A DNA stretch of 64,000 nucleotides from Methanohalobium evestigatum Z-7303 (lineage in GTDB: Archaea > Halobacteriota > Methanosarcinia > Methanosarcinales > Methanosarcinaceae). The position numbers and the translations under genes are program-made. Numbering within the stretch: position 1 is the first letter of the stretch; each line of letters begins with the position of its first letter. The stretch lies in assembly GCF_000196655.1 (NCBI RefSeq), contig NC_014254.1, forward strand, positions 62,001-126,000, written 5' to 3'. Positions 3,401 through 22,100 of the stretch are shown piece by piece. The notes under the pieces are model-generated. The model searched no databases. It was not told the DNA's origin and was given only the letters and a program-made list of their open reading frames with translations.

Positions 3401-6400
3401 GCTAAACCAGACTTTATTGCCGTCTGTATCGATTTGTTCGGGCACGAGTACATATCCGTTTTTGAGAAATAGAGCTGAGTCGAGTTTTATTGTCTTTACA
3501 TTATTGTTGTCTATCAACACTTTGGTTAACCTATTGTTTGATACCAGATTGGTATTATTCTCTGCAAATTTTGTACTGCTGGTATAGCCTGAAACGTATT
3601 TCTCACCCATGAATCCCATGGATTCGTATTTACCCCAATCGGGATATTCAAAATCTGTTTCAATCGCACAACTATTGTATTCCAAATTACCTTCATCGAT
3701 GCTCCTATCGTTATCGTAAACTACATTAAAGGATTCGCTCATTAACCCATTATCCAGGTTATAATACAGTCCATCGAAGTTAATAGGGAACCATCCACAA
3801 TTTTCACCTTCTGCAACGGTTCCTGCAAGATTATATCTGTATCCAGACGTTTTATCAGTATCGAGCGTGAACCTGAGTGTTTCATTATCAGCTGCTCTTA
3901 TAATTATATCATCTGCAACATCTGTCGTTGTACCTCTATCAAGAGAAATGGAGTCGCTGTTTTTCATCAAGAGTTTGTTTGAACTGACAGACTCTAACTG
4001 CAATTTACTATATGTGTTTCCAATATCCAATCCTATCAAATCTTCTGAAATCTGGAATATACCTTTTACCAATACAGTTTCATTACTCTTATAGATATCA
4101 CCGACATCCAGTGCAATAACAGACACGTTTGATACAGATCCCAAGTCCTTTGAATAGACGAAATAATCACTGTCATCATTGATATCGACTATTTTATCAT
4201 CTACAAAATTACCATCTTTTGACAATTCGAACCAGACCTTATTGCCATCGGTATCAATCTGTTTTGGTGTGATTGTATAACCGTTTTTAAGTGATATTTT
4301 TGAACCTACAGAAACATATCTGCTCTCATTGTCATTCAACACAACCTTTGTTAACTGGTCTCCAGCCAACATATTTGATGAATTGGATGTGAAATTGGTA
4401 CTATTAGAATATCCAGCAAAATATGGTTTTGCTAAAAATCCGATTTCTTTGTATGTTCCAAATTCCTCGTATTTGAACGCTGTTTCAACCGGTTTTGCAG
4501 AATATTCAAAATCATCTTCATTTATGTTCCTATCAGACTTATCATCAAGATGTATCTTTATTGATTCTGAGCTGTTCTCGGATCCTAAATTTCTATATAA
4601 ACCTGAATAACTATCACTTGTCCAGAGATAGTTCAGTGATAGGTCTTTGTTTGCATCCCATACTCTGTAACCGGTATAGTAACTTTCTTCGTGTATTTCC
4701 CAAATCCATGATACCTGCTCGGTTCCATTTGAACATTCGGCAGTGGCAGTTATATTATATACACCTACATCTGCTGTATTGTTTGCATAAGAAGAACAGG
4801 TTACCAGGGTTTCAGATTTAATAATAGAGCCGTTCAATTTCCAGGTTACATTACAATTCTTATAGGTGTCGATACTAAACTCCTGCAATGTTTCAGGAGT
4901 TCCAAATTTTTTATCGGTATCGGGTGTTGCATCAGTTATTAATTTATCAACATTAACATTGGTACTTTCTTTAACCCCATCGCATTCAGTTTCTATCGTT
5001 GTAGACCCTATATTTTTTGCAGTAAAGAGCCCGGTTTCATTTACAACACCAACTGTAGTGTTAGTAATTGTCCAATTAACAGGCAACTCCACTTCATTCC
5101 CATCCTGGTCATAAACATCAGCGTTAAATGATAAAGTTTCATCTTCATATGCTGTAACATTTTCAGGATTTATCTCTATATTAGATACATCTACAGTTTT
5201 AATCGAACCCGAGGTAACCATAGAAAACGGCTGTGGTCCTTGAGGAACATTGGAACCTTTAACCTTTACAGTATAACGACCAATTTCTGGATTCTGTATT
5301 TCTACATCTTCAACATTGTCTACTGAAGACCGACTATAATATTCATCTCCACTTGGATCGATAACTGTTAAATCCAGGTCGTTAATTAGCATTTTAGATG
5401 CACTTGGGTCACCGGGATAATCCGTCCAGCTAATAGTAATCCTTAATGGATTTGTACTGTCATCTACATAGAATTTCGTTTCAGCGATTTCATCCGTACT
5501 TAAGTTTGTTTTCTGAGAATAGTGTATGTCACCATTAGCTAATGTCTTTATAGAATTGTAAAGGTCAACTCTTCCCCATCCTTGTGCATAATTTGGTCTA
5601 TTGTCATTTGAACTTATATCATGAGCTCCGTTTATTAGAGTGGTTTTAATAAGCGAAGCTGTTGGTTGGATAGAGTTCTCAACATAATATTGTCTAATTG
5701 ACGCTGCAGCACCAGCTGTTAATGGAGTTGCCATACTCGTACCATGCTTCTCGGTGTAATATCCTGACCCATCGCTATCATAACTGGACCTTGTAGAATT
5801 TATATAAGTACCAGGCGCTACTACATCCGGTTTCACACGTCCATCCTCGGTAGGTCCACGGCTACTAAATGATGCGACATCTTTAGGGTCTGATGATTCA
5901 GATGCACCTACTGTCAAACAGTTTTTTGCGTTCCCTGGTGATATGATAGTTTCCTGATTGGCGCCCGAATTTCCAGCTGCAAATAATATTAACATATCTT
6001 TATGATTCCACATAAATTCGTCTACACTACTAGACTGTGAACCATAATTTCCACTGTGACCCCAGCTGTTAGAATGTATACTAGCTCCATTATTATATGC
6101 ATCTTTGAACAATTCAGTTAAAGGATTGGGAGGGTATAGATATTTACTATCTTTGGGGCTGAGTGACTGGAAATACAAATCCGTGTTTGGTGCAGTTCCT
6201 CTATATTTTCCACTTGATTTTTTTCCGTCTCCTACTACTGAGCCAGCAACATGTGTTCCATGACCTGAATAATCTTCTGCATCTTCGTATTCACGGATAC
6301 CGGTAAGACTATCTTGCAAATCAGGGTGCATAGATGAATCATCGACGCCTGTATCAATTCCAGTATCTGCTATGGCGATTGTTTGACCGGAACCATCCAG

Positions 6401-7186
6401 TGAATATATAAAATTAGTATCATCTACATTCATGATACTTATAGCATCATTATTAAGGATACGGGGTCGATTATATTCTTCTATCCATGATACAGAGTTA
6501 ATTTTTGCAATATCTGATATATTGGTTCCAGTTAGATTAACATTGGCCCTTATACAATTTTCACCAAATTTGATAATATGTGTGCCAGTAGAATTAATTT
6601 TATCAAGTGTTTTTTGGGCATCTATGTTTTCGAAGGTAACTATAGTCAACGTAAGGTTATTTTTTGTTTTGTTGATAGAAGGAGAAATTTTGTAATTTGG
6701 TTTGTAGATACTAGTATACTGGATATAGTCGATGCTCTGTAAATCTTTTTTGGAACCGGGTTCCATTTTTACAAGGTATCCGTTTTCTGGGATATAATTT
6801 ATTAATTCAATATCTCTACTTTTTAATGACTGAATCCATTCGTCTTTTATAACATCCTTAAACTGGATGAGGTAAATCTTCTCTTTGCTGTCAGGGTAAA
6901 ATTGTTTAGGTTTGCTCTGTGTGGTCAAGTTAGATTTATTTGTTTCTATTGCACCCTGTTTTAGATAAATTTTATTTTTGTTTATACTTTTTTTCTTCTC
7001 ATTATTATTTGTTTTTAATTCCTTTTCCTCATACTTTTTAAATTCCAGCTGATTGGAACTGTTATCATCTGATACATTTGTAGAAACTTTTTCTGTTTCT
7101 GTATTTAAATCCTTAGTTATGTTATTACCTGAAATTATACCTGTAAAAAGAGTAAGAACCAATAACAACAATACGATTTTTTTGAT
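407..7186 (-). CDS. Giant secreted subtilase with two S-layer domains and a PGF-pre-PGF domain
   Basis: Extracellular serine protease of about 2260 residues. An N-terminal signal peptide is followed by a propeptide-like region and a peptidase S8 domain. The triad is visible as IADTGID (Asp near residue 270), GHGTHVAG (His near 305) and GTSMATP (Ser near 480). Downstream come an Ig-like segment, two tandem copies of the Methanosarcina S-layer duplication domain (each starting near YTGYRVWD/YNLAGT and carrying the IDTDGNKVWF block), further Ig-like repeats, a PGF-pre-PGF domain and a C-terminal membrane helix followed by KKR. Many N-x-S/T sequons suggest glycosylation. Start choice: a strong GGAGG lies 7 nt before an ATC at 7186, which would give MKKIVLLLVLTLF, a typical signal peptide; the first conventional start is TTG at 7171, 22 nt from the Shine-Dalgarno. 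Likely role: S-layer-anchored protease. Confidence 0.9.
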   Translation of the reverse strand: MKKIVLLLLVLTLFTGIISGNNITKDLNTETEKVSTNVSDDNSSNQLEFKKYEEKELKTNNNEKKKSINKNKIYLKQGAIETNKSNLTTQSKPKQFYPDSKEKIYLIQFKDVIKDEWIQSLKSRDIELINYIPENGYLVKMEPGSKKDLQSIDYIQYTSIYKPNYKISPSINKTKNNLTLTIVTFENIDAQKTLDKINSTGTHIIKFGENCIRANVNLTGTNISDIAKINSVSWIEEYNRPRILNNDAISIMNVDDTNFIYSLDGSGQTIAIADTGIDTGVDDSSMHPDLQDSLTGIREYEDAEDYSGHGTHVAGSVVGDGKKSSGKYRGTAPNTDLYFQSLSPKDSKYLYPPNPLTELFKDAYNNGASIHSNSWGHSGNYGSQSSSVDEFMWNHKDMLILFAAGNSGANQETIISPGNAKNCLTVGASESSDPKDVASFSSRGPTEDGRVKPDVVAPGTYINSTRSSYDSDGSGYYTEKHGTSMATPLTAGAAASIRQYYVENSIQPTASLIKTTLINGAHDISSNDNRPNYAQGWGRVDLYNSIKTLANGDIHYSQKTNLSTDEIAETKFYVDDSTNPLRITISWTDYPGDPSASKMLINDLDLTVIDPSGDEYYSRSSVDNVEDVEIQNPEIGRYTVKVKGSNVPQGPQPFSMVTSGSIKTVDVSNIEINPENVTAYEDETLSFNADVYDQDGNEVELPVNWTITNTTVGVVNETGLFTAKNIGSTTIETECDGVKESTNVNVDKLITDATPDTDKKFGTPETLQEFSIDTYKNCNVTWKLNGSIIKSETLVTCSSYANNTADVGVYNITATAECSNGTEQVSWIWEIHEESYYTGYRVWDANKDLSLNYLWTSDSYSGLYRNLGSENSSESIKIHLDDKSDRNINEDDFEYSAKPVETAFKYEEFGTYKEIGFLAKPYFAGYSNSTNFTSNSSNMLAGDQLTKVVLNDNESRYVSVGSKISLKNGYTITPKQIDTDGNKVWFELSKDGNFVDDKIVDINDDSDYFVYSKDLGSVSNVSVIALDVGDIYKSNETVLVKGIFQISEDLIGLDIGNTYSKLQLESVSSNKLLMKNSDSISLDRGTTTDVADDIIIRAADNETLRFTLDTDKTSGYRYNLAGTVAEGENCGWFPINFDGLYYNLDNGLMSESFNVVYDNDRSIDEGNLEYNSCAIETDFEYPDWGKYESMGFMGEKYVSGYTSSTKFAENNTNLVSNNRLTKVLIDNNNVKTIKLDSALFLKNGYVLVPEQIDTDGNKVWFSLYKDGSFVDDKVVTVNDNFVYRIDMGTISHVPIIAVHISDIDKQSQEIEADGTFQVSENYESIHTGDMFGNMQLDTVSASQITMESNSSITLGKGETVYFMDDFKFKVADSNELRYYPQRDVTKKPELIKSYHPIENPMTKVDHTQEFSINIHNTGNITWNIDGNTQKTDTQTSSSTYKVSYDTNGMFNVTAIASYSNFTEQYEWSWNVSYNDTIAPNVSLTADTVELLSVNNPASISVSITDKYPNNTEFLIKDISDEIMLEKNITSHVNGENQYNFTWNATNSSNEPVANGKYYLVVNSTDDAGNTASKNISVTVDNEKPTIDIKDITGTHSAGDKVYTNSTLTINASASGTPGDGSPDNISDIKFVLDSKSTKFKKTLKPNYTNKYWSDTVNLSLLPDDGRYNVIVEAADSANNSNSSKSGIDLILDRKPPEFAPSIKRINDTHAWVNVTSSEELKNNPDVKINGNDVPVTPENDYWSGVFQLTGSSYDINTTGSDLSGNTGNDSSTANVETIETSNNTGKMSNEKTGTSITFNTSDNTKGTVTITETSMPQVELDKKFVGIHFLDVHVGDKLTANLTNATIKIKVDENELPKGLDDNNVSIRYYNKSNESWDKVNTNKKSLDGTKYWTSNVNHFSTYGAIADDDMKPNIDEVYPAEGSILDSSTSKVKVKFSYSDGQSGINTSKTTIKFESDDKTTSDNTTITSEYATYNSTELSVGKYNSTVTVYDNAGNSKTYTTSFEIAEQKTDENVTNTDTNINSGSSSSGGGGGGSSNTDEDLDNIIDDFVNQKYVGNDRHIWYNFDNKISKVKSVHFDAAEARGKTNTRLVILKSNSTMVDEKPPGKAYQNINIWVGKAGFDNIVENASIDFIVDKTWIRNNNIERSTIKMCRHHGSSWDELETEKLSENETIIKFRSDTPGFSPFAITGKMKQTQSITTDTQVENNRTNNNVSNESTPVDSDQEDDTIGVGAWDLKWIILAILSMIVSISIYIKKR

Positions 7187-7603: not shown

Positions 7604-9433
7604 ATGACACACTATCAACGCATATCTGGACCTAACGAAAATTTTTCAAAATGGAACGTAGCATGTGATTTTAATAACAGAAATCAGGATAAAACCGATA
7701 TTGCAAGATCCTGCAAATATATCAATTCCATAACAAAAAAATTAGAAAGAGTAACATATGCATTTGAAGTGCTTAAATTGTTACCTGCTGAACCATTGAT
7801 TAAAGTGATCTCAAAACGGTATCTATACGATCATTATGGAAATCATGTGAACTTATCACTAAAACAAAGGGAAAATGTCAGGCTCGCATTGATAAATTCT
7901 AAAATCGTCAACTGGTACCCTATGAAATTAGTAACTCCAAACAAAACTATTAATTCTACTCCTTTTTTCTTGAATGAACTAGGTAAATATTATTATTACA
8001 ATGTTTTTGGCTTCAGCCCTGAATCAGTTTCGTTGAAATTTTATAGGGATAAAGTCGTTAAAAACAGGCTATTTTCTGTAGAACAATTAAATATACTTTC
8101 TAAGCACTATGATAACCTTGGATATGATACAAAAACCGGACTATATCCATTCGATCTTATTGTAGATGATTTACATGGATTTTTGCTGATTGACCAACAT
8201 GAAAATACGATAGGGATAGAAAAACGGATTTCTGAAGCTATTCATCAGTCAAGAACAAGGGGGATTTTACTTTACTTTCCTGCAATGACACCAGAGATGC
8301 AAAGGAGAATCAGTGCTGTTGTTGCAGGTATACTCTATAACGAAAACAGAGACAAGAAGTATCGGCCTTTTTCATATGTAACTTATATCGAATCAGCGAT
8401 ATGTTCTGGTAAGAACACATTTGATTGGTCTTATTACATAACCGCTCCAAAAAACTATCAAAGAGCACATATACCCGAAACACTTTCATTCCCTAAAACA
8501 GATATCAGAGAAAATGATTTTGTTAGTAGTTCTATGAGGGTCCTAAGAAATAATAAATCCTATCAACAGAAAGTCAAACAAAATTTCAACATACAATATA
8601 TTAGCGGTCTTAATGGCAAGGAAATTGTACCAAATATTAAAGTCAGTGTTGGGATAGGTCAAATCTTATCATTATGGGAAGAACTAGCAAATAATTCTGA
8701 AGTTATATTAACAGGTCTCTGCAGTAACCAAATTCTTGATAGTATAGGTTCATATCCTAGATTATTAATCGTTGATGGTGCTAGAAATGGTGCCGACCAC
8801 TTAAACACATTGGATAAATTCCGGAAAAACGGAGCACAGGTTTTAGAATTACATAGAAATCATGCTAAAGCTGTTCTAACAGATGATAAATTTCTGATAC
8901 ATTCTATGACTACTTCAAAATACGCTGGAAATAACATCGACTCGTTTGCAGTTATAGATTTTGGAGAACACAAAGATAGGAAACTTATCAAAGAAAAAAT
9001 CTACAAACTTTTGTATTATTTTGCTATGGAACAAAATGAAAATTTTAAAACCGAATTGGAAGATTTAAGAAAAATATTCCAATATAAGATAGAATTATAT
9101 CCACACTTTAATTGTAAAGTCAAGGACTGGGATTATTTTAAAAGGTTGTCATATCTATCACGCGTTAGCAACAGTAAATTGATAATATTCTCTTCTCATT
9201 TGAGTATGAAAAAACTCGCAAAAAACTGCAAATTTTTGGTTGTACAGGGGACCAGTCGAAGCGATAACCATGATTGCTACATGACCGCTATTAAACATGG
9301 ATACGCTGTTATAAAACGGAGATTGTGGCATCCAAGATTGATATTTAATAATGAATTCGTGAGTACAGGTAGCTGGGATTTTTCGCCTATTAGAGAGCAG
9401 AAAGAATTACAAATGATTATACATACAAGCTGA
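7604..9433 (+). CDS. Phospholipase D-like protein, probable nuclease or phosphodiesterase
   Basis: Cytoplasmic 609-residue protein with no signal peptide or membrane segment. Two PLD-type motifs are visible. The first is HAKAVLTDDKFLIHS near residue 420, which fits H-x-K-x4-D. The second is HPRLIFNNEFVSTGSWDFS near residue 576, with Arg in place of the usual Lys and a G-S-x-D/N tail. Paired HKD-type motifs normally build one active site. The first 340 residues are not recognised and include a possible winged-helix-like stretch around residues 75-115. The start is supported by an AAGGTG ribosome binding site. It runs convergently to the tubulin operon. Function could be DNA/RNA cleavage or defence; only the superfamily assignment is supported. 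Confidence 0.65.
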   Translation: MTHYQRISGPNENFSKWNVACDFNNRNQDKTDIARSCKYINSITKKLERVTYAFEVLKLLPAEPLIKVISKRYLYDHYGNHVNLSLKQRENVRLALINSKIVNWYPMKLVTPNKTINSTPFFLNELGKYYYYNVFGFSPESVSLKFYRDKVVKNRLFSVEQLNILSKHYDNLGYDTKTGLYPFDLIVDDLHGFLLIDQHENTIGIEKRISEAIHQSRTRGILLYFPAMTPEMQRRISAVVAGILYNENRDKKYRPFSYVTYIESAICSGKNTFDWSYYITAPKNYQRAHIPETLSFPKTDIRENDFVSSSMRVLRNNKSYQQKVKQNFNIQYISGLNGKEIVPNIKVSVGIGQILSLWEELANNSEVILTGLCSNQILDSIGSYPRLLIVDGARNGADHLNTLDKFRKNGAQVLELHRNHAKAVLTDDKFLIHSMTTSKYAGNNIDSFAVIDFGEHKDRKLIKEKIYKLLYYFAMEQNENFKTELEDLRKIFQYKIELYPHFNCKVKDWDYFKRLSYLSRVSNSKLIIFSSHLSMKKLAKNCKFLVVQGTSRSDNHDCYMTAIKHGYAVIKRRLWHPRLIFNNEFVSTGSWDFSPIREQKELQMIIHTS

Positions 9434-9615: not shown

Positions 9616-11322
9616 TTAAAATTTATAAAACGGTACACAAAAAATAGATGAAACAAAATGGTTAATTATTTTTTCAGTATCATTAGTCAGATTATTAGTT
9701 GATAATTCTGAGGTGTCATTGGTCTCCATACTTGTATCTTCAGTTACTGTGTCATTTATTAATCCACTAATAGAAAACGCTGAAAAAGTTGTAATTTCTG
9801 ACTCGTATTGATGGTTACCATTTTTTTCATTTATGTGATTAGTTTTTAATATACTCCAATGAGTTTCATCCCATCTGTACAGATTAATATCATTTTTATT
9901 GATATTGTTATCTTTAATCCAATCATTAGATACTTTAAACTTTATTTTTCCGCTTTTAATATAATTTTCTGACTCTATATTATGATTTCCTTTTGAAATC
10001 CATATATTAAAATTTCGATAAACTTGATCAGGAGCTTTTCCATCGACTAGTTCACTATGTTGGAGATTACCATTTAACTCTTCAACCAGTATAACAACAC
10101 CGTCCGAATTTTTATCGGGTGTTAATGTTAACCCTGTTATAACTTCTGTATTCTTCAATTCTTTATAAAACTCTTGACCTGAATTAAAATCTACAGAAAA
10201 TGATTCGTTTATTAATACATTATTTTGAGGCTCAGGACTTTTAAACTCATCATTAAAAGGGTTTAAAGGATTGCAGATATCAAACGGAACTAAGAAACAC
10301 AATACAGATACTAATAATCCTATAATAATAACTATACCCACAGAATATGGTATTACATTTTTCTCAAATGCTCCTTTTTTCTTACTGGATTTAGTTGATT
10401 TTCTATTTATAAAATTAGGTTCAGCTGATACTGGTGAAAATAAATTAGGCAATCTCTTGTCTAAGTTAGCTCTGATTTGTTCTATATTATAGCCTGATGT
10501 TTGGAGTTGATTGACTGAAAGTGTTATCACATTCAACATTTCCTTAAAGTATTCATTTTTAACTTCAGCATCATTTGATTTATTTACCAAATGGTTGACG
10601 TTTTTAAGGTTTTCTTTAGTTGAATTTAGATGAGCCTCAATAGTTTTTCCATACAGTTTACCCTGTGATTCTTCTAATAACCTAGATGTTTCGTAAAGTG
10701 GTTTAAAACCTGAGAATCTGGAATTTTGAACTATGTATATATTATAATCTTCCGGATTAAATGGTTCTTCATAACCGATAGCTGTTTTACCATAAAATTT
10801 TCCCGACTCTACGATAGGCTTTAAAAAATTAAATGATGTCTTAAAGTTATTAGTACCGAAAATAAGTGAGTTTTTGTTAAATACTTTTAAAGAATTCCAA
10901 TTAAATGATGATAAAATCGCAAGTACATCTTGCGGGTCATCAAATCTATAGCTATTTTTAGATGTTATATCTTTTCTTAAGTACTGATAATATTCATATT
11001 TTAAATTCTCCATCAAATCATCGATTTCGTTATGTGTAATTAAACCAAGTTCAATTTCCACGAAACTTTTAAATTTATTAACGAATTTTTGAAATATGTT
11101 ATCCACGGAATCTGTATAAAATACTGCATAATATTGTTCATAACGTACTACAGGCGATGTTTTAGCTTTAAAATAATAAATCAGTTGAGGTTTTTCTGTT
11201 AAATCGATTTCTAATATTATACTTTTGTAAAACAAGTTTGAAATATATTCATTTTTACTCGTTATGTTTTTAGTAGAATCATATCTAAAACCCTCTGAAT
11301 CAAATATTTCTATGGTATCCAT
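9616..11322 (-). CDS. Bitopic membrane protein with cytoplasmic domain and external PGF-pre-PGF domain
   Basis: 568 residues and the last gene of the tubulin-like operon, starting 9 nt after the GTPase stop. There is no N-terminal signal peptide. Residues 1-320 are charged and soluble-looking, with no family recognised. A single strong membrane helix (about 325-348, VGIVIIIGLLVSVLCFL) follows a Lys-rich stretch, so the N-terminus should stay in the cytoplasm and the C-terminus outside. Residues about 380-525 match the PGF-pre-PGF surface domain (the VYRNFNIWISKG and SNDWIKDNNIN blocks, ending TTFSAFSISG). It resembles a linker between cytoplasmic partners and the cell surface. That coupling is inference from topology and operon position. 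Confidence 0.75.
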   Translation of the reverse strand: MDTIEIFDSEGFRYDSTKNITSKNEYISNLFYKSIILEIDLTEKPQLIYYFKAKTSPVVRYEQYYAVFYTDSVDNIFQKFVNKFKSFVEIELGLITHNEIDDLMENLKYEYYQYLRKDITSKNSYRFDDPQDVLAILSSFNWNSLKVFNKNSLIFGTNNFKTSFNFLKPIVESGKFYGKTAIGYEEPFNPEDYNIYIVQNSRFSGFKPLYETSRLLEESQGKLYGKTIEAHLNSTKENLKNVNHLVNKSNDAEVKNEYFKEMLNVITLSVNQLQTSGYNIEQIRANLDKRLPNLFSPVSAEPNFINRKSTKSSKKKGAFEKNVIPYSVGIVIIIGLLVSVLCFLVPFDICNPLNPFNDEFKSPEPQNNVLINESFSVDFNSGQEFYKELKNTEVITGLTLTPDKNSDGVVILVEELNGNLQHSELVDGKAPDQVYRNFNIWISKGNHNIESENYIKSGKIKFKVSNDWIKDNNINKNDINLYRWDETHWSILKTNHINEKNGNHQYESEITTFSAFSISGLINDTVTEDTSMETNDTSELSTNNLTNDTEKIINHFVSSIFCVPFYKF

Positions 11323-11331
11323 ATCTATCCC

Positions 11332-12792
11332 TTAACTTAATTTATTGAGGAATTTGTCGAATCCTACAAGAATAACTGAATTATTGCTATCCTTCAAAGG
11401 CACACGGATTCCATTTTCATCTATACGAGTTTGATAATAAACAGGATGGATTTCTTTGCCACCTGTCTGTTTGATAAGTGAATATATTTGCGAATTATTT
11501 TTCAGTATATCATTAACGTATTCTACGAAATCCTCATAATACTCAAGAGGGTCAATACCATTTTCTTGAGTAAATTTTTCAGCAAAGTAATCACACTTTG
11601 TAGCTACTAACATAACATCTTTATCTCTATAAGATTCTAGAATTTCAAAATAATCTGAAATATTAAGTTTATCTTTGTTAAAATACCGTTCTATATCAAT
11701 TAAAAAAATCAAAGTATTAGCTGAATCCACATTAAAAAATATTTTTTGAAAATATCTATCTTTTGTAATTAACTCTGATGTACCTTTAATAGCATCAGGT
11801 ATTTGCTTTAAATATTCTCCAGGGTAATCTATCGTTTGAAGGCTTATATTAAGCGGGAACAACCTACCGTGAACAAACTGAAAACCTAATGTTTGTGCAG
11901 TATTTTCTTCCCTACCTGTTGGTTGGATATTCCAACCATCAGAATATTGATTATCGTAGGAATTTATATCATCCACCAGATTTATTAAATCTTTTGTAGG
12001 GTTCATCGGGGTTTCTTCATTAGACGATTGCAAAGCTTCTAGGTAAGCACCGATTATAAACAATGTTTTACCTGACTGTTTAGGACCTAGTACAAAGAAC
12101 GAATTTTCTGCGTCGTATTTGAAGAATTTTTTAAGAGATATTAAAAAAACACCCGATACAGCAAGGTCTCTGTATATAAAATCTGTCTGGAGTCCAAAAT
12201 CAGCATTGTTTTCCCAGAAATTAATAAATGTAACAGACGATGCGTTTACATCAAATATAGCTGGATATAAAATATGATATTCTAAAAACGCACCGATAGT
12301 AAGGACAGCGAATATGAAATAAAGATATTTCACTACTTCTCTAAACTCTAAAGGTTGAGAGGTACCTAACTTACTCAACCTTCGTTTGCCACCTATAATC
12401 AACCCAAAAATTAAGCCACCAAATAGAATAGGGAAATTAGAAATTAAATCCACATTTCCCCAGAATACATTTTGGTCTCCTAATGTAATCAAAGCTATAA
12501 ACGTAGCAATTAATAATATCCTACCTTGCCAGCTTTTTTTAATATCTAGATTCAACAAAATTAAAAAACCCAAATATAATCCAAAAATTGAGATTGCTAC
12601 CTGCTCTAAAGTAACACCCAAATATGCGTTTGGAAGACCCCAAAAAATTACATTTGATAAATGACCGGCTAACCAGCCCCGAGCCATCATATCAGCTACA
12701 AATATAGCCAACATAAATGTTAATACAAAATAAAAAATGAATTTTTTCTCTTCTTTTCTTCTGTAAACCAGTTTCCTAAGCCCTTGTTTCAT
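11332..12792 (-). CDS. Membrane-anchored GTPase, tubulin-operon partner
   Basis: 486 residues. The first 215 hold about five membrane helices. The rest is a P-loop GTPase-like domain: Walker A GPKQSGKT near residue 238, a DYPGE motif near 320 in the Walker B/switch II position, and TKCD near 397 in the N/TKxD guanine-specificity position. The layout recalls TRAFAC-type GTPases, including the 'double-GTPase' groups found in bacterial and archaeal multi-gene systems, but I cannot place the subfamily. The gene starts 3 nt after the tubulin-like stop, so translation is probably coupled. Likely role: nucleotide-dependent membrane switch acting with the filament protein. Confidence 0.75.
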   Translation of the reverse strand: MKQGLRKLVYRRKEEKKFIFYFVLTFMLAIFVADMMARGWLAGHLSNVIFWGLPNAYLGVTLEQVAISIFGLYLGFLILLNLDIKKSWQGRILLIATFIALITLGDQNVFWGNVDLISNFPILFGGLIFGLIIGGKRRLSKLGTSQPLEFREVVKYLYFIFAVLTIGAFLEYHILYPAIFDVNASSVTFINFWENNADFGLQTDFIYRDLAVSGVFLISLKKFFKYDAENSFFVLGPKQSGKTLFIIGAYLEALQSSNEETPMNPTKDLINLVDDINSYDNQYSDGWNIQPTGREENTAQTLGFQFVHGRLFPLNISLQTIDYPGEYLKQIPDAIKGTSELITKDRYFQKIFFNVDSANTLIFLIDIERYFNKDKLNISDYFEILESYRDKDVMLVATKCDYFAEKFTQENGIDPLEYYEDFVEYVNDILKNNSQIYSLIKQTGGKEIHPVYYQTRIDENGIRVPLKDSNNSVILVGFDKFLNKLS

Positions 12793-12795
12793 ATT

Positions 12796-15700
12796 TTATC
12801 CTAAACTCCCCTTCTCATACAGGTTCAAATCTACAGAATTATTTGATGACGGATTAAGAAAATCGATGTAATCTATATAGTTTTGAAGGAGTTCATCGGA
12901 AATTTTCTTTTCATCCTGAAGGAAAAATTCAGCATCATTTTTATTCTCGAGATTAAATATTTTATTTCTTCGAACGTAATAACCTTCATCTAACCCAAAG
13001 CTGTGATATATGAGAATATCTTGTCCAACTTTTGATTCACAGCGGAAATACGAATCTCTATAACCGCCTGCTTTGACAATTTTTTGTATGTTGTCCAGGA
13101 AAATACCAGTTATAAATACCACTATATTAACGTCCCAATCCCCACCAAAACTTTCAACCCATGAAGTATAGGGATTTTCAGCGCTTCTACCACTAACATT
13201 CAGGTCAAATGCATTAGAAAATTTGTCGTGGAAATCAAGGTTATTACCAATATTAATCTGATCAATGGCTTGACTGGTTACCATTAATCTGATTTTGATT
13301 TTTTCATAACGTCTTCTGTCTTGTATAATTTTGCGACGCTTCAAATTTGTATACTGTTGGCTGCGGGTGTTATTAACAAGTTCTTCAAGGTTAGACTTTA
13401 AATGCTGCAATTCAGTTTGGTTATTTAATAATCCACTTTCACTAAGGTTAGAGTTTCCTGTTGCACGGAATACATTTATTGGTTGTATTGTTTTTGTATA
13501 TGAATAGTAATTTTCTGAAACATTTGGCAGACTGATGATATCAGTTTCTGGTTTTTTATATTTCTCAATATCATCATTAAATCCAATTATTTTTTTAGTG
13601 AAAGTTGTCCTCAAATTTTGCAAATTTTTGAATAAACTAATGGTCAAATCATAAATCTCGGTCTTGTAATCCAAATCTTTAAGTTCGTTTTTGATTTCAT
13701 CTTCCTGCTTTTTAATATGGTTAAACTCGGTTTTTTCCATCTGCAAAGCTTTGTTTAATATAGAACCCAGAGCTTCTGCATCATCACCACTTTTTAGTGA
13801 ATTAATAAACTCGTCTCTAATATCTCTTGAAGGGTTTTTAAGTAACCGTTCCATTGAATTGTATATGCTTGATTCCAACCATTCTCTGTATTTTATTGCA
13901 TCGTTGATTATATCCTGACCTGTAAAAATCAACTCTGAATAAAAATTGTCCACGGAAGCACCCAGGGTGAAAATAGCATCGCTGTTTAGCTGTGCCATCA
14001 GTTTTTTGTAATTTTTTATGGAGTTTTGCTGTTGTTCTTCATTTAACTTAAATATTGATTTCAATTTGTAGAAAACATTTTCGTTATGTATTAACAGGAA
14101 AGCCTTTTTAGCTTGTTTTAATTTTTTCAGTGATTCTTTAATTTTGAAAATGTCTCCTTCGACATCAATATTGAATTCTTTTGATTCTTTGCGGATTTGT
14201 TCAAGAATGCTCAGAATTTCCGTTTCAGATATGCTATCAATATCTTGGTCATCTTCAGCGGATATAATGTTATTATTGAATTGTTTTAAATTAGTTACTA
14301 AACTTGTTACATCTGTTTCTAAATTTGAATCCTGTATTTTTTGGTATTGTTGGACAGGAGTTTGTATTTTTTGAACGAATTCCCTTACTTTTTGTTGGTT
14401 TTCATCATTTTCTTTTTCCTGTAATGATTGAATATAGTCTTCTTTTTCTTTGAATTCCTTTTTTAAACGTTCTTTACGTTCTTTGAAATTATTATAACTC
14501 GATTGGAGACGTTGTAGTTGCATTTCCCTGTTAACCTGGTCTCCACTCTTTGTGTAAATTAAATATTCGATAGTATTGCGCAGTTGATTATCATCTATGG
14601 CTTTTTCTTTTTCAATTATATTTTTCCTACGGGTAAGGGTCGTAATTTCCTTCTCCAGGATATCTGCAAGTAATTCATCCAGATCATCAACAAATGTTAC
14701 CTGGTTCTTAGTATCTACTAGACCAACTGAATTACCCATTAAATCAATTTGTTCTAAAAAGCTATCACATTGCTCAGCTGCGTTTTTAATAATATCAGTA
14801 TAAACTGATAATGATTGGTAATTCAATTTTTTAAACAAGTTAAGATTTAATAACGAGTTTATATTGGAAAAACGCTCCTGTAATTCATTTATATCCTGTT
14901 CTTTTAATTGGACCTGGAGTTTATCTGGATGATATTTTTCGATATTTTCCAAATAACGGAATATAGATGAATAAAGGTCGTTTTCAGCTTCAAGTGACTG
15001 TTGTTTTTTAATCAGAATCTCACGTATAGCATCTCTTGATTTTCTTATCGCTTCAACATTATAACGAAGAATCTGTGGAACACCAATTATAAATGGTGCA
15101 TATTTTGGTTGGTTAGTAAACGGATCTTCCATTTTTTCAGTGCTGTAATAAGCCAAAATAGAATAAACAGCTGCTTCATCAAATTCTTTTAAACTTTTTT
15201 CAGTTTTTATCCGTTCACCTGTTTTCCCATCATAATTAGTTGGGTCTATAGGGAGCAAGATTAAATTTTTAAAAAGGTTTTTGTTTATGAGATTAAGGTA
15301 TTCAAGTTCTGATAATGTCGCATATGCATTTGTATTTTCTTTAACACCTTCGACCTGATTTGGTAAAACACCAAACAGTGTGATTTCAGTTGTAGGTTGT
15401 TGTCTTTTCAAATGTCTGGCCATATCAATCATTAACCCAGAACCAGTACCACCACCCAAACCTACGACCAGTGCTACTTTGCCATTTTCTGGCAGGTCGA
15501 CTACATTTGATATATCATCGTCTTCAGCATATGCTTTATAATAAAGAGCTTTCCCCAAACCCCTTTTTCGTATAACACCGGTAGCAAAATCAAGGTTTTC
15601 ATTAATATATTCGCTTTTAATCCACCATTTATCTCTATCCATCCCTATACCGTCAGTAATAATAGGAACAGAAGTTTCTCCTATTAAATCAACACTACTG

Positions 15701-15996
15701 TTAAGTTTGACTTTGTCTCCAGTAATTAATTTATACTTAACATCCAAGTAACCAATGTCATAATCAGTATTTCGTAACTCATTTTCTAGTTTTCTTTTTT
15801 GTTTGATTATCTGATTAATCCGTGTTTCATCTAAATTTTTCTCACCTTGAGCTGAATCTATGATCGTAACTGTAATATCTTCCGGGACAGGTTGTGGTCT
15901 AAGTGCATTTCTAAGTACCCATTCCTGTTCTAACAGGGTAAACGCTATTTCTTTGCCTGCTCCCCCTAACGCAAAAATCCTATCAGGAAATTTCAT
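12796..15996 (-). CDS. Large tubulin/FtsZ-like GTPase with coiled-coil insert
   Basis: 1066-residue cytoplasmic protein. The N-terminus has a Rossmann-like entry (RIFALGGAGKEIAFTLL). Near residues 179-185 sits GLGGGTGSG, the tubulin/FtsZ signature loop that binds GTP phosphates. The middle (about 330-800) is rich in Glu/Lys/Gln and predicted coiled coil; the C-terminal 250 residues are globular. Length and layout fit the 'tubulin-like' group (Pfam Tubulin_2/FtsZ-like families of bacteria and archaea), not cell-division FtsZ, which is about 370 residues. It is the first gene of the operon, with AAGAAGGGG upstream of the ATG and a TTATATAAAA box at 16061-16070. Polymerisation near membranes is inferred from the family and the membrane GTPase partner. 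Confidence 0.8.
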   Translation of the reverse strand: MKFPDRIFALGGAGKEIAFTLLEQEWVLRNALRPQPVPEDITVTIIDSAQGEKNLDETRINQIIKQKRKLENELRNTDYDIGYLDVKYKLITGDKVKLNSSVDLIGETSVPIITDGIGMDRDKWWIKSEYINENLDFATGVIRKRGLGKALYYKAYAEDDDISNVVDLPENGKVALVVGLGGGTGSGLMIDMARHLKRQQPTTEITLFGVLPNQVEGVKENTNAYATLSELEYLNLINKNLFKNLILLPIDPTNYDGKTGERIKTEKSLKEFDEAAVYSILAYYSTEKMEDPFTNQPKYAPFIIGVPQILRYNVEAIRKSRDAIREILIKKQQSLEAENDLYSSIFRYLENIEKYHPDKLQVQLKEQDINELQERFSNINSLLNLNLFKKLNYQSLSVYTDIIKNAAEQCDSFLEQIDLMGNSVGLVDTKNQVTFVDDLDELLADILEKEITTLTRRKNIIEKEKAIDDNQLRNTIEYLIYTKSGDQVNREMQLQRLQSSYNNFKERKERLKKEFKEKEDYIQSLQEKENDENQQKVREFVQKIQTPVQQYQKIQDSNLETDVTSLVTNLKQFNNNIISAEDDQDIDSISETEILSILEQIRKESKEFNIDVEGDIFKIKESLKKLKQAKKAFLLIHNENVFYKLKSIFKLNEEQQQNSIKNYKKLMAQLNSDAIFTLGASVDNFYSELIFTGQDIINDAIKYREWLESSIYNSMERLLKNPSRDIRDEFINSLKSGDDAEALGSILNKALQMEKTEFNHIKKQEDEIKNELKDLDYKTEIYDLTISLFKNLQNLRTTFTKKIIGFNDDIEKYKKPETDIISLPNVSENYYSYTKTIQPINVFRATGNSNLSESGLLNNQTELQHLKSNLEELVNNTRSQQYTNLKRRKIIQDRRRYEKIKIRLMVTSQAIDQINIGNNLDFHDKFSNAFDLNVSGRSAENPYTSWVESFGGDWDVNIVVFITGIFLDNIQKIVKAGGYRDSYFRCESKVGQDILIYHSFGLDEGYYVRRNKIFNLENKNDAEFFLQDEKKISDELLQNYIDYIDFLNPSSNNSVDLNLYEKGSLG

Positions 15997-16199: not shown

Positions 16200-16257
16200 G
16201 TTAAACCTTCCAATAAAAAGTTGAAAAAAAAATGTAATCGCAACAAAAAATCAAACC

Positions 16258-16281
16258 ATCCTACAGGAAAACCTGCAGGAT
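16258..16281 (-). terminator. Hairpin terminator after the archaellin-like gene
   Basis: As minus-strand RNA this forms a 10-bp stem (ATCCTGCAGG/CCTGTAGGAT, with one G-U pair) closed by a TTTT loop. A T-rich tract follows. It begins about 20 nt after the gene's stop codon. Confidence 0.55.
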
Positions 16282-16302
16282 AAGTTTGTTAATCTAGTTA
16301 TC

Positions 16303-17229
16303 TCAAGGGAACAAAGAAACTTTTCTATCAACACCATAAGTTGCAGGTGTACTGAATTCCAAAATCTTGGATGTGCCGGTTTCTGGTGTTAATGTAATTT
16401 TTAAGTCTGTCCTTGGTTTTAATTTAAGGTCAGAACTGTTCCAATTTTCACTATAACCATAAGTCAGTGTGTACTCATTATCACTTAAATTGTGACCATC
16501 CAACTCGATTGTGTTATTGGATTCAAAGACTGTATAATTACCACTATCCACGGTATCATCACTGGCATTATACAATGTCGTGGATGAATTATCTACACCA
16601 TAATGGTCTAATTTGTATGTTTGATTGGATGATATGTAAGTTCCATCGATAATTGTTTCGTTATCGGCTTCTCCTACACGGTCTACGTCATCTACATTAT
16701 CTACATTAGCACTGTTTAATGTAGAAATTGACAATGCTATAAGATCTCCCTTATTCATAACCGGACTATCACTTGAGAACGATTGGTCTTCATCACGTAT
16801 AGCTTTGGCTGTAAAGTATGATTTTGATTTATTGAAAAGAAAAGCTTCTTTTTCACTATAATTATATTCTAAGGTATTGGTTTTATTCAAGTCACTGACA
16901 GTAACTATTAATTGACTAAGGTCCATCCTGTTTCCGCCAGCACTAATACTTGTACGGATTAAAAATTGGTCTACGGTCGGTTCAAGTGTACCACTGGTAC
17001 TCCCCCGTAAACCTTCAATAGTTCTAACGTTAAGATTTGATGCAACTTGTGATGTGGCTTCTTCTCCTGTAGTCTGTGCTTTTTGCTGTAGATTTCCGGA
17101 TGTTTGAATCAATACTGCAGCTGCAACAGCCGCTACAAGAATCATTGCAATGAATATGATTAACGTACCTATACCTACCTGAGCATCATCGCTCTTTACG
17201 AACAAATTTTTACTTAGTCTGATACACAT
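16303..17229 (-). CDS. Archaellin-like protein (class III signal peptide)
   Basis: The N-terminus reads KSDDAQVGIGTLIIF followed by a long hydrophobic helix ending LIQTSGNLQQKAQ. This is the standard archaellin processing region, with cleavage by FlaK-type peptidase expected just before the Gln. At about 305 residues it is longer than typical archaellins (near 200). The body is rich in N-x-S/T sites and contains an insert full of Asn and Asp. No other archaellum genes are nearby, so it may be an orphan or adhesive filament subunit. Start is uncertain: GGAGG directly abuts the ATG at 17229, while an ATC at 17223 would have a 7-nt spacing and give MRLSKNLFVKSDD. It lies upstream of, and co-directional with, the tubulin operon. 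Confidence 0.8.
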   Translation of the reverse strand: MCIRLSKNLFVKSDDAQVGIGTLIIFIAMILVAAVAAAVLIQTSGNLQQKAQTTGEEATSQVASNLNVRTIEGLRGSTSGTLEPTVDQFLIRTSISAGGNRMDLSQLIVTVSDLNKTNTLEYNYSEKEAFLFNKSKSYFTAKAIRDEDQSFSSDSPVMNKGDLIALSISTLNSANVDNVDDVDRVGEADNETIIDGTYISSNQTYKLDHYGVDNSSTTLYNASDDTVDSGNYTVFESNNTIELDGHNLSDNEYTLTYGYSENWNSSDLKLKPRTDLKITLTPETGTSKILEFSTPATYGVDRKVSLFP

Positions 17230-17260
17230 TCCTCCGTGACACATATAAAAAGATTGTGCA

Positions 17261-18234: not shown

Positions 18235-19540
18235 AGACTCAGCGGCTTCAGAAGGAGTTTGCTTTACCGACATGTGTTGCCGAAAAACCTTATCCTTCTT
18301 GGATGGTTCACACATCCACTATCGGTTATCTCTATGAGAGAATCACCGACTACTTTTCTTAATATGTTCAAAGCTCCATTAACATCAGCATTGAGCAATT
18401 TACCAGTAGAAGACTGGAACAATCCCCTCTTGACTCTTTTACCCATGTATTTTTGATGTTTTTCAATGGGTTCTAATGCAAGTGCATCGGTTTTACTGGT
18501 ATATGCCTCATCAACTTCTATACAATTGATACCGTAGTACTCACATTTAGACCGAAGTTTCTGTTTGAATTTACCAAAGGGTATAGTTTGAAAAGTCTGG
18601 TTATTCTTTTTACCCATGTTGGAGTTCTGTTTTATGTCTTTCAGTTCTCCGATTATGATGTTGCCGATGTTATTATCTATACAGTGTTTAACGATATAGT
18701 TAACACTCTGATTCATGAAATCGTTGAGTTTGTTCTTCCTTTTCTCGAACAACCAGTTCAGTTTCTGACCTGATTTAATACCCTGTTTATCATATACAGA
18801 CTGCAACCCACTTTTGACTTTGTTCCACCAACGGTTATATGATTTCAAACCCCTGCCTTCTATGATGAAAGCAGTCCCATTGGTATCTACACAGGTTGCG
18901 AAATTGTTCACTCCTAAATCAATAGATAGATGTTTATTGTAGTCTAAATCGACTTTTTCACCGATATCCCTGTAAACATACTCTATCTCAAACCATTGTC
19001 CGTTATACTTTGGGATTATCCTTACTTCTTTTATGTGTTTACCGGTTATGTTTTCAGGTAACTTGAAGTACAGGTATCTAACACCATAGTTTTTGTAAAA
19101 TTCTCTACCCATAGACAACCTGATGAATCTTTCATCAATTTTAAACATATCTTTTGGAAAGATACATACAAATTTAGAGTCTTTAGGTAAGTATTCAGGC
19201 ATCTTTACAGGTCGGTTGTAGTTGCCTCTTTTTTTCTCACCCAGAACCCTGAAAAACGATTTCATGTTTCTATCTACTACTTTCATGGTTTGCTGTGCAA
19301 CCTGTGAAGGCAGCATCTTGTAATTCTCATTTTCTTTTATCAGATGATAAGCGGATTCATGATTGAGATATTTTGAATTGTCAAAATAGTATTGTCTTGT
19401 AGTGTACAGAGTAAAATTGTACAGATTTTTAGACAATTTAGTAATCCTTTTCAGGACTTCATACTTCTGTTTATCCGCTTTGATATGGTTTTTCTGGGTG
19501 AGATGTATTTTATTATATATTTTATAATTATATTATTTAA
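18214..19540 (-). mobile_element. IS200/IS605-family element, tnpB-only (IS1341-type)
   Basis: The element carries only tnpB and no TnpA transposase, so it would need help to move. The right end is clear: a perfect 8-bp hairpin CCGCTGAG/CTCAGCGG (18223-18245) followed by a GTAGTTCAC-like tip near 18214. The region between the tnpB stop and this tip would correspond to the omega (guide) RNA 3' part in this family. The left end is not resolved; it lies somewhere in 19510-19574. The insertion separates a truncated small gene from a helicase lacking its N-terminal half. Confidence 0.7.
18264..19508 (-). CDS. tnpB: TnpB, RuvC-like RNA-guided nuclease of an IS605-type element
   Basis: About 414 residues. 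RuvC-like catalytic segments are visible: SIDLGVNNFATC (first Asp), IIGELKDI (Glu) and NADVNGALNILRKV (last Asp). The usual four-Cys zinc ribbon between the last two is absent; the region runs from TSKTDALALEP to KRGLFQSSTGK with no C-x2-C pairs, a variant seen in part of the family. Family N-termini read LTQKNHIKADKQKYEVL, and that sequence is encoded in frame upstream of the first conventional start (TTG at 19436). The natural start codon position at 19508 is ATA, so this copy either starts non-canonically or has lost its ATG. Confidence 0.85.
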   Translation of the reverse strand: MHLTQKNHIKADKQKYEVLKRITKLSKNLYNFTLYTTRQYYFDNSKYLNHESAYHLIKENENYKMLPSQVAQQTMKVVDRNMKSFFRVLGEKKRGNYNRPVKMPEYLPKDSKFVCIFPKDMFKIDERFIRLSMGREFYKNYGVRYLYFKLPENITGKHIKEVRIIPKYNGQWFEIEYVYRDIGEKVDLDYNKHLSIDLGVNNFATCVDTNGTAFIIEGRGLKSYNRWWNKVKSGLQSVYDKQGIKSGQKLNWLFEKRKNKLNDFMNQSVNYIVKHCIDNNIGNIIIGELKDIKQNSNMGKKNNQTFQTIPFGKFKQKLRSKCEYYGINCIEVDEAYTSKTDALALEPIEKHQKYMGKRVKRGLFQSSTGKLLNADVNGALNILRKVVGDSLIEITDSGCVNHPRRIRFFGNTCR

Positions 19541-19574: not shown

Positions 19575-22100
19575 TTGTTTCATTTTGACGAAATGAAACT
19601 CGCATTAAATCTGCGATTTGATGCGATGCTGAAGACATCAGGGTTTTCTACCTTCCGTTATTATAAAATCACGGGAATTAACCATGGTTCATTAGCAGCT
19701 CGGCATCTGCTACTTGAAGGTAATCTTGATACATTAGATTATATTCTAGCATTATCAAAGGATGAACGGTATTCCAAGCTAATAGATGCTTTGAATATGT
19801 TAGAAAATAGCAATACAACAACACTTACCGAACTTGCTGCTTATTGGGATAAATACACAGAAAATATCAACTGGTTCTATGAACAAGTAAAAGGACTTGG
19901 TATTTCTGAAAGTTTAAATACCGATGAATTGGAAAATTTGCATAAAGATCTAGCAGATATGATTTCCATTCAAAACCGCGTGAATGCTAATAATAGTGCA
20001 CTTAATGTAATTAGGAAGGCTAATAAAGGCGATTTAATCTACCCTGGAGCCGATTGTATAGAACTTAGAGATGCTATTGAAGCAGCGAAAATAATTCATT
20101 CTGTTGACATTCCCGCCAACATGCGACAGAACCTTTTTGTTAAAGATTATAAATCACAAAAAGATTATTTGAGCAAAATGGCAGCTAACATATATTCAGA
20201 TCTTGGTAAAGTAGATTCAGCATCAAGCGAAGCAAAAGATATTGCACATATTGATTTTGAGGATTTCTTTAAAGGTGATTCTGAAAAATTAGAAATTCAG
20301 TATTTAATTGATACAATTGTTCGTGCAGAAAATAACCCTGAAGAACTACAAAATTGGAGTAAATTTATTGACACTGTTGAGAAGGCTAGTGAGGCAGGTA
20401 TAAGTCCTGTAATAGATACATACCTGTCAGGGGATTTATACTTTGAAAATTTGGATACAACATATGAACAGGTACTTTACCGAAACTTGGCCCACATTGC
20501 ATATGAAAAATATCCAGAACTTAATCGTTTTAGCGGTCTGAAACAGGAAGAAGCCCGCGAAAGATTCCGTAAAACCGACAGAGAACTTATAGACCTGGAA
20601 AGGAAATATTTACGGGCAAAGCTTGCCAAAGCTCCTATTACCCGTAGGAACAGTGAAGGGTTACCTCGTGATAAAACCGAACTTGGGTTAATAAACCATG
20701 AACGTAGCAAGAAACGCAAACATATCTCCTTCCGTGATTTGATGAACCGTGCCGGCAAAGCTATACAAGAACTTAAACCCTGTTTCATGATGAGTCCTTT
20801 ATCAGTTTCGCAATATCTAAAACCAGGTACTTCAGAGTTTGACCTCGTTGTAATTGATGAAGCATCACAGATGAAACCTGAAGACTCGTTGGGCGCATTA
20901 GCACGCTCTAAACAGATAGTTGTAGTTGGTGATCCAAAACAATTACCACCTACTTCATTCTTTGAACGCCTTGGTGGGGATGACAATGAAACAGAAGAAA
21001 ATGATGCAGACACTGTAGAAAGTATACTCGAGATGGCAATGCGTTGCTGGCAACCTTATCGGCGTCTTCTATGGCATTACCGGTCACGTCATGAATCTTT
21101 AATCGACTTTTCGAATAAAAAATTCTATAACGATCAACTTATTGTGTTCCCATCTCCGGTAACCAATCATCCTAGTTACGGAGTACATATGGAGTACGTT
21201 GGAGGTACCTGTAGAAAAGGAGGAACAAATATAAAAGAAGCTCAACGTGTGGCAGAAGCAGCTGTTGAGTTCATGCAAACAAATCCTGAACAATCTCTTG
21301 GTGTAGTTGCAATGAACAAAGTACAAACGGATTTGATAGAAGACGAAGTCAGTCGTTTATTAACAGAAAATACAGCTGCTTACAATTACATCGAACACTG
21401 GGATAAGATAAATGGCGGTCTTGAGAGTTTCTTTGTGAAAAATCTTGAAAATGTCCAGGGTGATGAAAGAGATGTAATATTTATATCTACTACCTATGGA
21501 CCTGATTCTGAAAGTGGAAAAGTGCACCAACGCTTTGGTCCGATCAATTCGAACGTTGGATATCGTCGACTTAATGTACTTTTTACAAGAGCAAAAGAAC
21601 AGGTACAGCTTTTTACATCAATGAGACCTTCAGATGTTCGGGTTAATGAAGAAAATGTTAATTTTGGTCGGAGAGCACTGCATGACTATTTAGAATACGC
21701 AGCTACAGGTAGACTTCAAGGTGGTGATGGAAGTTCTAATGAACCTGAAAATGATTTCGAAAGACACGTTAAGGAACACCTTGAAAAAAGAGGATTCGAT
21801 GTAGATTGCCAAGTAGGTGTATCTGGATACTTTATAGATTTGGCAGTCAGCCACCCTGCGTTCTCTGACGGATATTTGGCTGGTATAGAATGTGATGGAG
21901 CTACATATCATTCAGCAAAGTCTGCTCGAGACCGTGATCGATTACGTCAGGAAATTTTAGAAAATCTTGGATGGGATATATATAGAGTTTGGTCCACTGA
22001 CTGGTTTGCTAACCCGAAGAAGGAAACTGATAAGCTTGAACAATATATACACAGTCTATTGGAAACTAAAGCACCGGTAACACTGGAAAAAGCAGCATAA
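19575..22100 (+). pseudogene. 5'-truncated superfamily 1 helicase with Vsr-like nuclease domain
   Basis: 841 codons covering the C-terminal part of a large DUF4011-type helicase. Motif II is clear (VVIDEASQMKPED, then VVVGDPKQLPPTSFF), as are the later motifs LENVQGDERDVIFIS and RLNVLFTRAKEQ. A C-terminal domain with DLAVSHPAF and GIECDGATYHSAKSARDRDR fits the Vsr/MTES_1575 endonuclease-like fold. The Walker A loop (GPPGTGKS-type) and the whole N-terminal DUF4011 region are missing, and the IS605-type element abuts the 5' end. The gene has probably lost its start by insertion plus deletion. Full-length relatives occur in defence islands. Residual expression is possible but ATPase function is unlikely. 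Confidence 0.75.

Follow-up and report, generated by a model that had tools for sequence, protein, structure and literature searches.

The window, which is the whole 64,000-nucleotide stretch of Methanohalobium evestigatum Z-7303 DNA analyzed here, belongs to a 163,915-bp replicon (the 164-kb plasmid); the other contig of the genome is 2,242,317 bp. Three genes, P0001, P0002, and P0003, lie in this order on its minus strand with intergenic gaps of 3 nt and 9 nt, and an initial sequence-only reading had described these ORFs and gaps correctly (Table 1). The three reading frames were intact over a total of 2,120 codons, and a ribosome-site-like sequence preceded each start. Three other genes of the tubulin/FtsZ family were found in the genome, all of them chromosomal, and a function of the plasmid trio beyond cell division is therefore plausible. 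A near-DNA search against plasmid records returned no match.

An archaellin-like gene is located upstream on the same strand, and the sequence-only reading had pointed to it. The gene itself is real, as shown by its PF01917 match. However, a terminator-like hairpin and 306 nt lie between this gene and the trio, and no archaellin gene was found beside the operon among the relatives examined. The gene was thus ruled out as a trio member by its own hairpin and by its absence beside the operons of relatives. It is solitary on the plasmid, and the four other archaellin-family genes are all chromosomal.

The surrounding genes were also examined. Convergent with the trio, a plus-strand gene (7604-9433) encodes a 609-aa protein for which Pfam, NCBIfam, and PADLOC gave no match; inspection by eye showed an HxK(x)4D motif resembling that of phospholipase-D-type nucleases. 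On the other side, a TnpB-type IS605 OrfB gene (18264-19436, minus strand) adjoins a helicase-nuclease gene (19575-22100, plus strand) with AAA_12 and MTES_1575 REase domains. AAA_11 was matched only at its end, and the front of this gene may be truncated. No vWA domain was detected by Pfam in the genes from 407 to 22100 of the window.

Table 1. Features of the trio and of the adjacent archaellin-like gene (window positions)
Feature	Position	Strand	Basis
Gene-4-type bitopic protein P0003, 568 aa	9616..11322	-	PGF-pre-PGF match; likeness to Methanoperedens gene 4
P0003 PGF-pre-PGF domain, residues 364-520, predicted extracellular	9763..10233	-	TIGR04213
P0003 single membrane helix, residues 327-345	10288..10344	-	KSTKSSKKKG before helix, N terminus inside
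P0003 cytoplasmic domain, residues 1-320	10363..11322	-	Similar to Methanoperedens gene 4
Membrane GTPase P0002, 486 aa	11332..12792	-	Operon GTPase HMM, BLASTP, motifs
P0002 G4, TKCD	11590..11601	-	T398, K399, D401 invariant
P0002 G3, DYPGE	11815..11829	-	D322, Y323, G325 invariant
P0002 G1 P-loop, GPKQSGKT	12064..12087	-	G236, G241, K242 invariant
P0002 membrane part, six predicted helices, about residues 18-222	12118..12792	-	Hydropathy, 17 homologues
FtsZl1/Tubulin_2-type tubulin-like protein P0001, 1066 aa	12796..15996	-	Pfam, AlphaFold2 model, CetZ1 match
P0001 tubulin C-terminal domain, about residues 831-997	13006..13506	-	Model order S-H-S-H-S-S-H; CetZ/FtsZ alignment
P0001 helical/coiled-coil insertion, about residues 465-830	13507..14604	-	Model secondary structure; boundaries inferred
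P0001 candidate T7 catalytic loop, D437-x-x-D440	14677..14688	-	Topology, before H8-like helix
P0001 nucleotide-binding domain, about residues 1-312	15061..15996	-	Model strands S1-S6; FtsZ homology
P0001 T4 GTP-binding loop GGGTGSG, residues 181-187	15436..15456	-	Conservation in 37 homologues
Terminator-like hairpin 3' of archaellin-like gene	16256..16283	-	12 pairs, TTTGATTTTT tail
Archaellin-like gene	16303..17244	-	PF01917, E 8.6e-28

Features of the three encoded proteins

P0001 matched the Pfam family Tubulin_2 (PF13809) with an E value of 3.7e-9 and a score of 36.7 bits, above the cut-off of 27. The region around residues 167-251 was homologous to FtsZ (hhalign E 1.6e-8), and within the T4 loop, G181-G183, T184, G185, and G187 were invariant among 37 homologues. 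The C-terminal part showed no sequence similarity to FtsZ, the signal coming from residues 167-251 and the first loop. Because the sequence similarity to the tubulin family stops near residue 251, the second domain was recognized by predicted structure only. An earlier model from 10 sequences was too weak at the C terminus (pLDDT 59.8), and 37 homologues were used instead as input for AlphaFold2, giving a model with a pLDDT of 83.9 and a pTM of 0.66. The best structural match of this model was CetZ1 (Z 23.2, 319 of 330 residues aligned, rmsd 3.8, model range 2-988), with FtsZ at Z 21-22 (about 290 of 300 residues, both domains covered) and tubulin at Z of about 20.4 (about 358 residues); these scores are from realignment of Foldseek's own matches, and all rows listed were of the tubulin family. 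As the match to CetZ1 extends over nearly its whole length, P0001 is predicted to have both tubulin domains, that is, a complete fold.

In the model, an insertion of about 365 helical residues, which CetZ lacks, separates H8 from S7 within the tubulin fold, and coiled-coil helices follow the nucleotide domain at residues 487-555 and at further positions up to 814. Past residue 831, the model runs through a strand, a helix, a strand, a helix, two strands, and a helix, as does the C-terminal domain of tubulin, and W954, N969, and G978 were nearly invariant among the 37 homologues. An acidic residue was found at the position of D440 in 95% and at that of D437 in 68% of the 37 sequences, and the two are spaced like the T7 acids of FtsZ. 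D437 and D440, placed by topology just before the H8-like helix, may thus be the T7 acids. The assignment of P0001 to the tubulin superfamily in the sequence-only reading was borne out by the Tubulin_2 match, the GGGTGSG loop, and the coiled-coil stretch, and both the GTP-binding loop and the predicted tubulin fold were present.

By sequence, the best PDB match of P0001 was TubZ (E 4.2e-6), itself a tubulin relative found on plasmids, and the trio could accordingly be read as a TubZ-like system for segregating the 163,915-bp replicon that carries it. We regard this as highly improbable, since homologues occur in the genomes of many species, several of them on chromosomes or on contigs of more than 400 kb, the partners are membrane proteins with no gene for a DNA-binding partner in the unit, and TubZ has nothing like the large coiled-coil insertion of P0001.

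P0002 matched the operon GTPase HMM, which was built from relatives plus P0002 itself, with an E value of 1.1e-95, and the GTPase of GoM-Arc1 by BLASTP with an E value of 1.1e-39. The P-loop, DYPGE, and TKCD motifs claimed in the sequence-only reading were conserved across 17 homologues and in the methanogen, ANME, and Geoglobus copies. The Walker B-region Glu of DYPGE was found in P0002 and in the Methanosarcinales and Methanomicrobiales copies, whereas the Methanoperedens and GoM-Arc1 GTPases read DYPGP and have no Glu after DYxG. The five membrane helices of the same claim are probably one too few. Since the averaged hydropathy of the 17 homologues showed six peaks, P0002 probably has six helices with both ends inside, and its GTPase domain would therefore be cytoplasmic. 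The closest Pfam family for the operon GTPases was DO-GTPase2 (PF19993), with 12 of 17 matching at E < 0.01 (best 3.6e-6), a model that also matched unrelated generic P-loop stretches in every genome searched. P0002 itself scored 14.6 bits, under the Pfam cut-off of 27.

P0003 was confirmed to have a cytoplasmic part and one membrane helix, a topology predicted, like that of P0002, by hydropathy. Its extracellular part, which the sequence-only reading had named both PGF-pre-PGF and S-layer-type, matched the PGF-pre-PGF surface domain TIGR04213 (E 1.7e-43, 148.2 bits, cut-off 28), and the S-layer lattice domain PF07752 gave no Pfam match in P0003. The cytoplasmic domain was similar to that of the gene at the same position in Methanoperedens (Z 5.3-6.0, 0 of 500 shuffles as good); against haloarchaeal gene 4, Z was 2.4 at best. 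A search of 186 genomes of the order found no relative of this domain beyond chance. No TIGR04213 match was found in ten proteins sampled from relatives, each encoded 3' of the GTPase gene. Homology between the PGF-pre-PGF domain and the surface parts of Methanomicrobiales gene 4 was considered and not accepted (hhalign E 0.011).

At 407-7171 on the minus strand, the window also encodes a 2,254-aa protein with a subtilase domain, two S-layer domains (PF07752), and Ig-like repeats, whose C terminus has a PGF-pre-PGF-like region and a terminal membrane helix. Because this C-terminal region was the closest within-window match of the P0003 PGF-pre-PGF domain, the latter may have been recruited locally.

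Distribution of the operon family among archaea

Across 84,980 species genomes, the scan yielded 46 loci, one of which was an ordinary FtsZ. In the HMM census, which counts loci and includes some from close relatives, 41 named archaeal loci were informative, meaning that the contig continues, and in 40 of them a GTPase gene adjoined the tubulin gene or lay within a few genes of it. The pair is thus kept elsewhere, so that the co-occurrence condition set by the sequence-only reading did not refute it, and the trio is not a chance grouping. In methanogens and their relatives, the full unit usually has four genes: gene 1, encoding a signal peptide, a surface domain, and a membrane helix; the tubulin gene; the GTPase gene; and gene 4, encoding a cytoplasmic part, usually a helix, and often a surface part. 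Gene 1 was upstream in 35 of 36 non-haloarchaeal and 0 of 9 haloarchaeal loci of the same census. The surface part of gene 4 consists of N/S/T-rich stalks in Methanosarcinaceae, a beta-type domain in Methanomicrobiales, an FnIII-like domain (by eye) in Geoglobus, and a PQQ beta-propeller in haloarchaea; the GoM-Arc1 copies have no membrane helix, and the Methanomicrobiales operons have an extra PEGA-domain gene.

Several further arrangements were observed among these loci. In three haloarchaeal operons (L046, L049, and L107), the GTPase-like gene is present twice, and the P-loop of one copy is degenerate, reminiscent of an inactive-active pairing. DnaJ-domain genes lie near haloarchaeal tubulin operons L050, where the gene also has a YtkA-like domain, and L053, which also has Hsp70. 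A Methanosarcina-like genome (L027; 6017-7768, 8302-11589) has a second tubulin copy without a GTPase partner, just downstream of a caspase and FGE-sulfatase gene. A contig labelled as a Bacteroidota MAG (L058) carries a typical methanogen four-gene operon, and its label is probably a binning error.

Within the phylum sample, the tubulin was present in 47 of 393 genomes and 22 of 136 genera, a patchy spread, and the other genome of the genus examined had no copy. In the midpoint-rooted tubulin tree, the window copy grouped with Geoglobus, Methanoperedens, GoM-Arc1, and haloarchaeal copies and not with those of its own family, its exact place being unsure on a long branch (1.25). This position, together with the plasmid location, suggests transfer. 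The plasmid trio is an unusual variant with PGF-pre-PGF on gene 4, and gene 1 was not found in the genome by one-sequence and alignment searches run without a positive control. As gene 1 is present in nearly all relatives but was not found here, the window unit could be degenerate, and the long branch and the barely recognizable sequence of the P0003 gene are in line with a decaying, nonfunctional remnant. The three intact frames, the nucleotide-binding motifs kept in P0001 and P0002, the tight spacing, and the ribosome-site-like sequences argue against this, and we consider it very unlikely.

Earlier papers already report the pairing of this tubulin with the GTPase (PMC2875224, PMC7159879). 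FtsZl1 was described with membrane-associated GTPases and many other membrane proteins in archaeal operons, and membrane remodelling was proposed (Makarova and Koonin 2010, PMC2875224). These operons share with the trio a protein of about 1050 aa with an N-terminal FtsZ-like domain, a GGGTG(S/T)G loop, and an extended coiled coil, its coexistence with conventional FtsZ, and a Walker-motif GTPase partner that is membrane associated in archaea. The window locus differs in having no vWA or kinase gene and in a third protein, P0003, that bears a PGF-pre-PGF surface part. A vWA gene is present in most, but not all, FtsZl1 operons, and its absence therefore does not exclude membership of the trio. 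In that paper, the second tubulin domain of FtsZl1 was not identified and the alignment was unreliable past helix H5, whereas our model of P0001 predicts a C-terminal tubulin domain. No experiment on any FtsZl1 family member was found in the literature searched. Following the 2010 proposal, which was made for FtsZl1, the trio could be a membrane-remodelling or vesicle-forming machine without a specific tie to the surface coat. This would leave the recurrent surface parts of genes 1 and 4 and the PEGA genes of Methanomicrobiales unexplained, and we consider it rather unlikely.

DO-GTPase systems with tubulins and vWA proteins have been placed among predicted conflict systems, with Hsp70 and GrpE in other neighborhoods (Kaur et al. 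2020, PMC7159879). In these systems, a GAP1 gene lies downstream of the DO-GTPase gene and is often fused to C-terminal membrane helices and surface domains (PMC7159879). The GAP1-N2-type systems share with the trio a P-loop GTPase with a Walker B-region Glu, a coiled-coil tubulin, and a gene directly 3' of the GTPase gene that can encode a membrane helix and a surface part. The trio could thus belong to this class, its surface part sensing an invader, the GTPase switching, and the tubulin assembling to block or kill. Two haloarchaeal plasmids with the same tubulin type have VWA and Hsp70 genes nearby, one of them also GrpE, which ties the 2010 and 2020 descriptions together and favors a conflict role, as do the DO-GTPase2 matches, the patchy spread, the surface parts that vary around a more constant core, and the second tubulin copy just 3' of a caspase-FGE gene in one genome. 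Borg elements of Methanoperedens are reported to carry Tubulin_2 proteins. However, GAP1-N2 (PF20013) was not detected in P0003, whose cytoplasmic part is so divergent that the domain could be missed, in the sampled gene-4 proteins, or in the genome; the trio has no recognized FNIII gene, no recognizable effector gene was found within or adjoining it, and its GTPase is under the Pfam cut-off. In addition, PADLOC gave no convincing model, with one sub-threshold match (E 0.022), no relative was found among 2.9 million viral contigs, and the defense role of the whole DO-GTPase class is itself a prediction. We therefore regard a conflict role, which is absent from the sequence-only reading, as a genuine possibility but not the probable one, its circumstantial support being about as much as that for a cytoskeletal link.

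A putative link from the cell surface to a GTP-controlled polymer

With moderate confidence, we favor reading the trio as a variant of the FtsZl1 (Tubulin_2)/membrane-GTPase operon that is carried on a plasmid and would couple the cell surface to a GTP-controlled polymer across the membrane. The gene order and spacing, the conservation of the tubulin-GTPase pair, the GTPase motifs, and the identity of the surface domain form its observed basis, together with the tubulin fold predicted as complete and the membrane topology read from hydropathy. P0001 would bind GTP and assemble on the inner face of the membrane, presumably by GTP-dependent polymerization, and the six-helix P0002 would be the membrane-fixed switch that recruits P0001 or licenses its assembly. 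The cytoplasmic domain of P0003 would touch P0002, P0001, or both, and its PGF-pre-PGF domain would report or anchor a ligand in the surface coat. The whole unit would then act across the membrane to couple the surface to the polymer. The probabilities that we attach to the other readings overlap with that of this one, because the same device could serve envelope organization or conflict.

Since the operons repeatedly encode proteins that combine a surface part with a single membrane helix (genes 1 and 4), a trans-envelope architecture is likely. The trans-envelope apparatus proposed in the sequence-only reading is thus retained for the predicted tubulin fold, the conserved pair, the kinship of P0003 with Methanoperedens gene 4, and the recurrent surface proteins. 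Its coupling to the S-layer lattice was not supported, as the surface domain of P0003 is PGF-pre-PGF and not a lattice domain, and the archaellin-like gene lies outside the unit. A more specific and speculative version, which we think unlikely, is that the plasmid unit lost gene 1 and moved the surface function to gene 4 by gaining PGF-pre-PGF, so that the polymer became tied to the glycoprotein coat. If this were true, the trio would be a prokaryotic cytoskeleton-to-surface link through one bitopic protein.

Three points are new here, namely the prediction of a whole tubulin fold that holds an insertion, the recognition of a four-gene pattern, and the rearranged form of the unit in the window. 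Both the second tubulin domain of FtsZl1 and its capacity to form filaments had been left open, and the P0001 model favors the presence of this domain, thereby making filament formation by FtsZl1 directly testable. If the favored reading is true, these operons would encode a prokaryotic machine in which a tubulin polymer is connected to surface domains through a membrane GTP switch. Surface parts that vary around a conserved core offer a way to ask whether the units serve a cytoskeletal role, a defensive one, or both.
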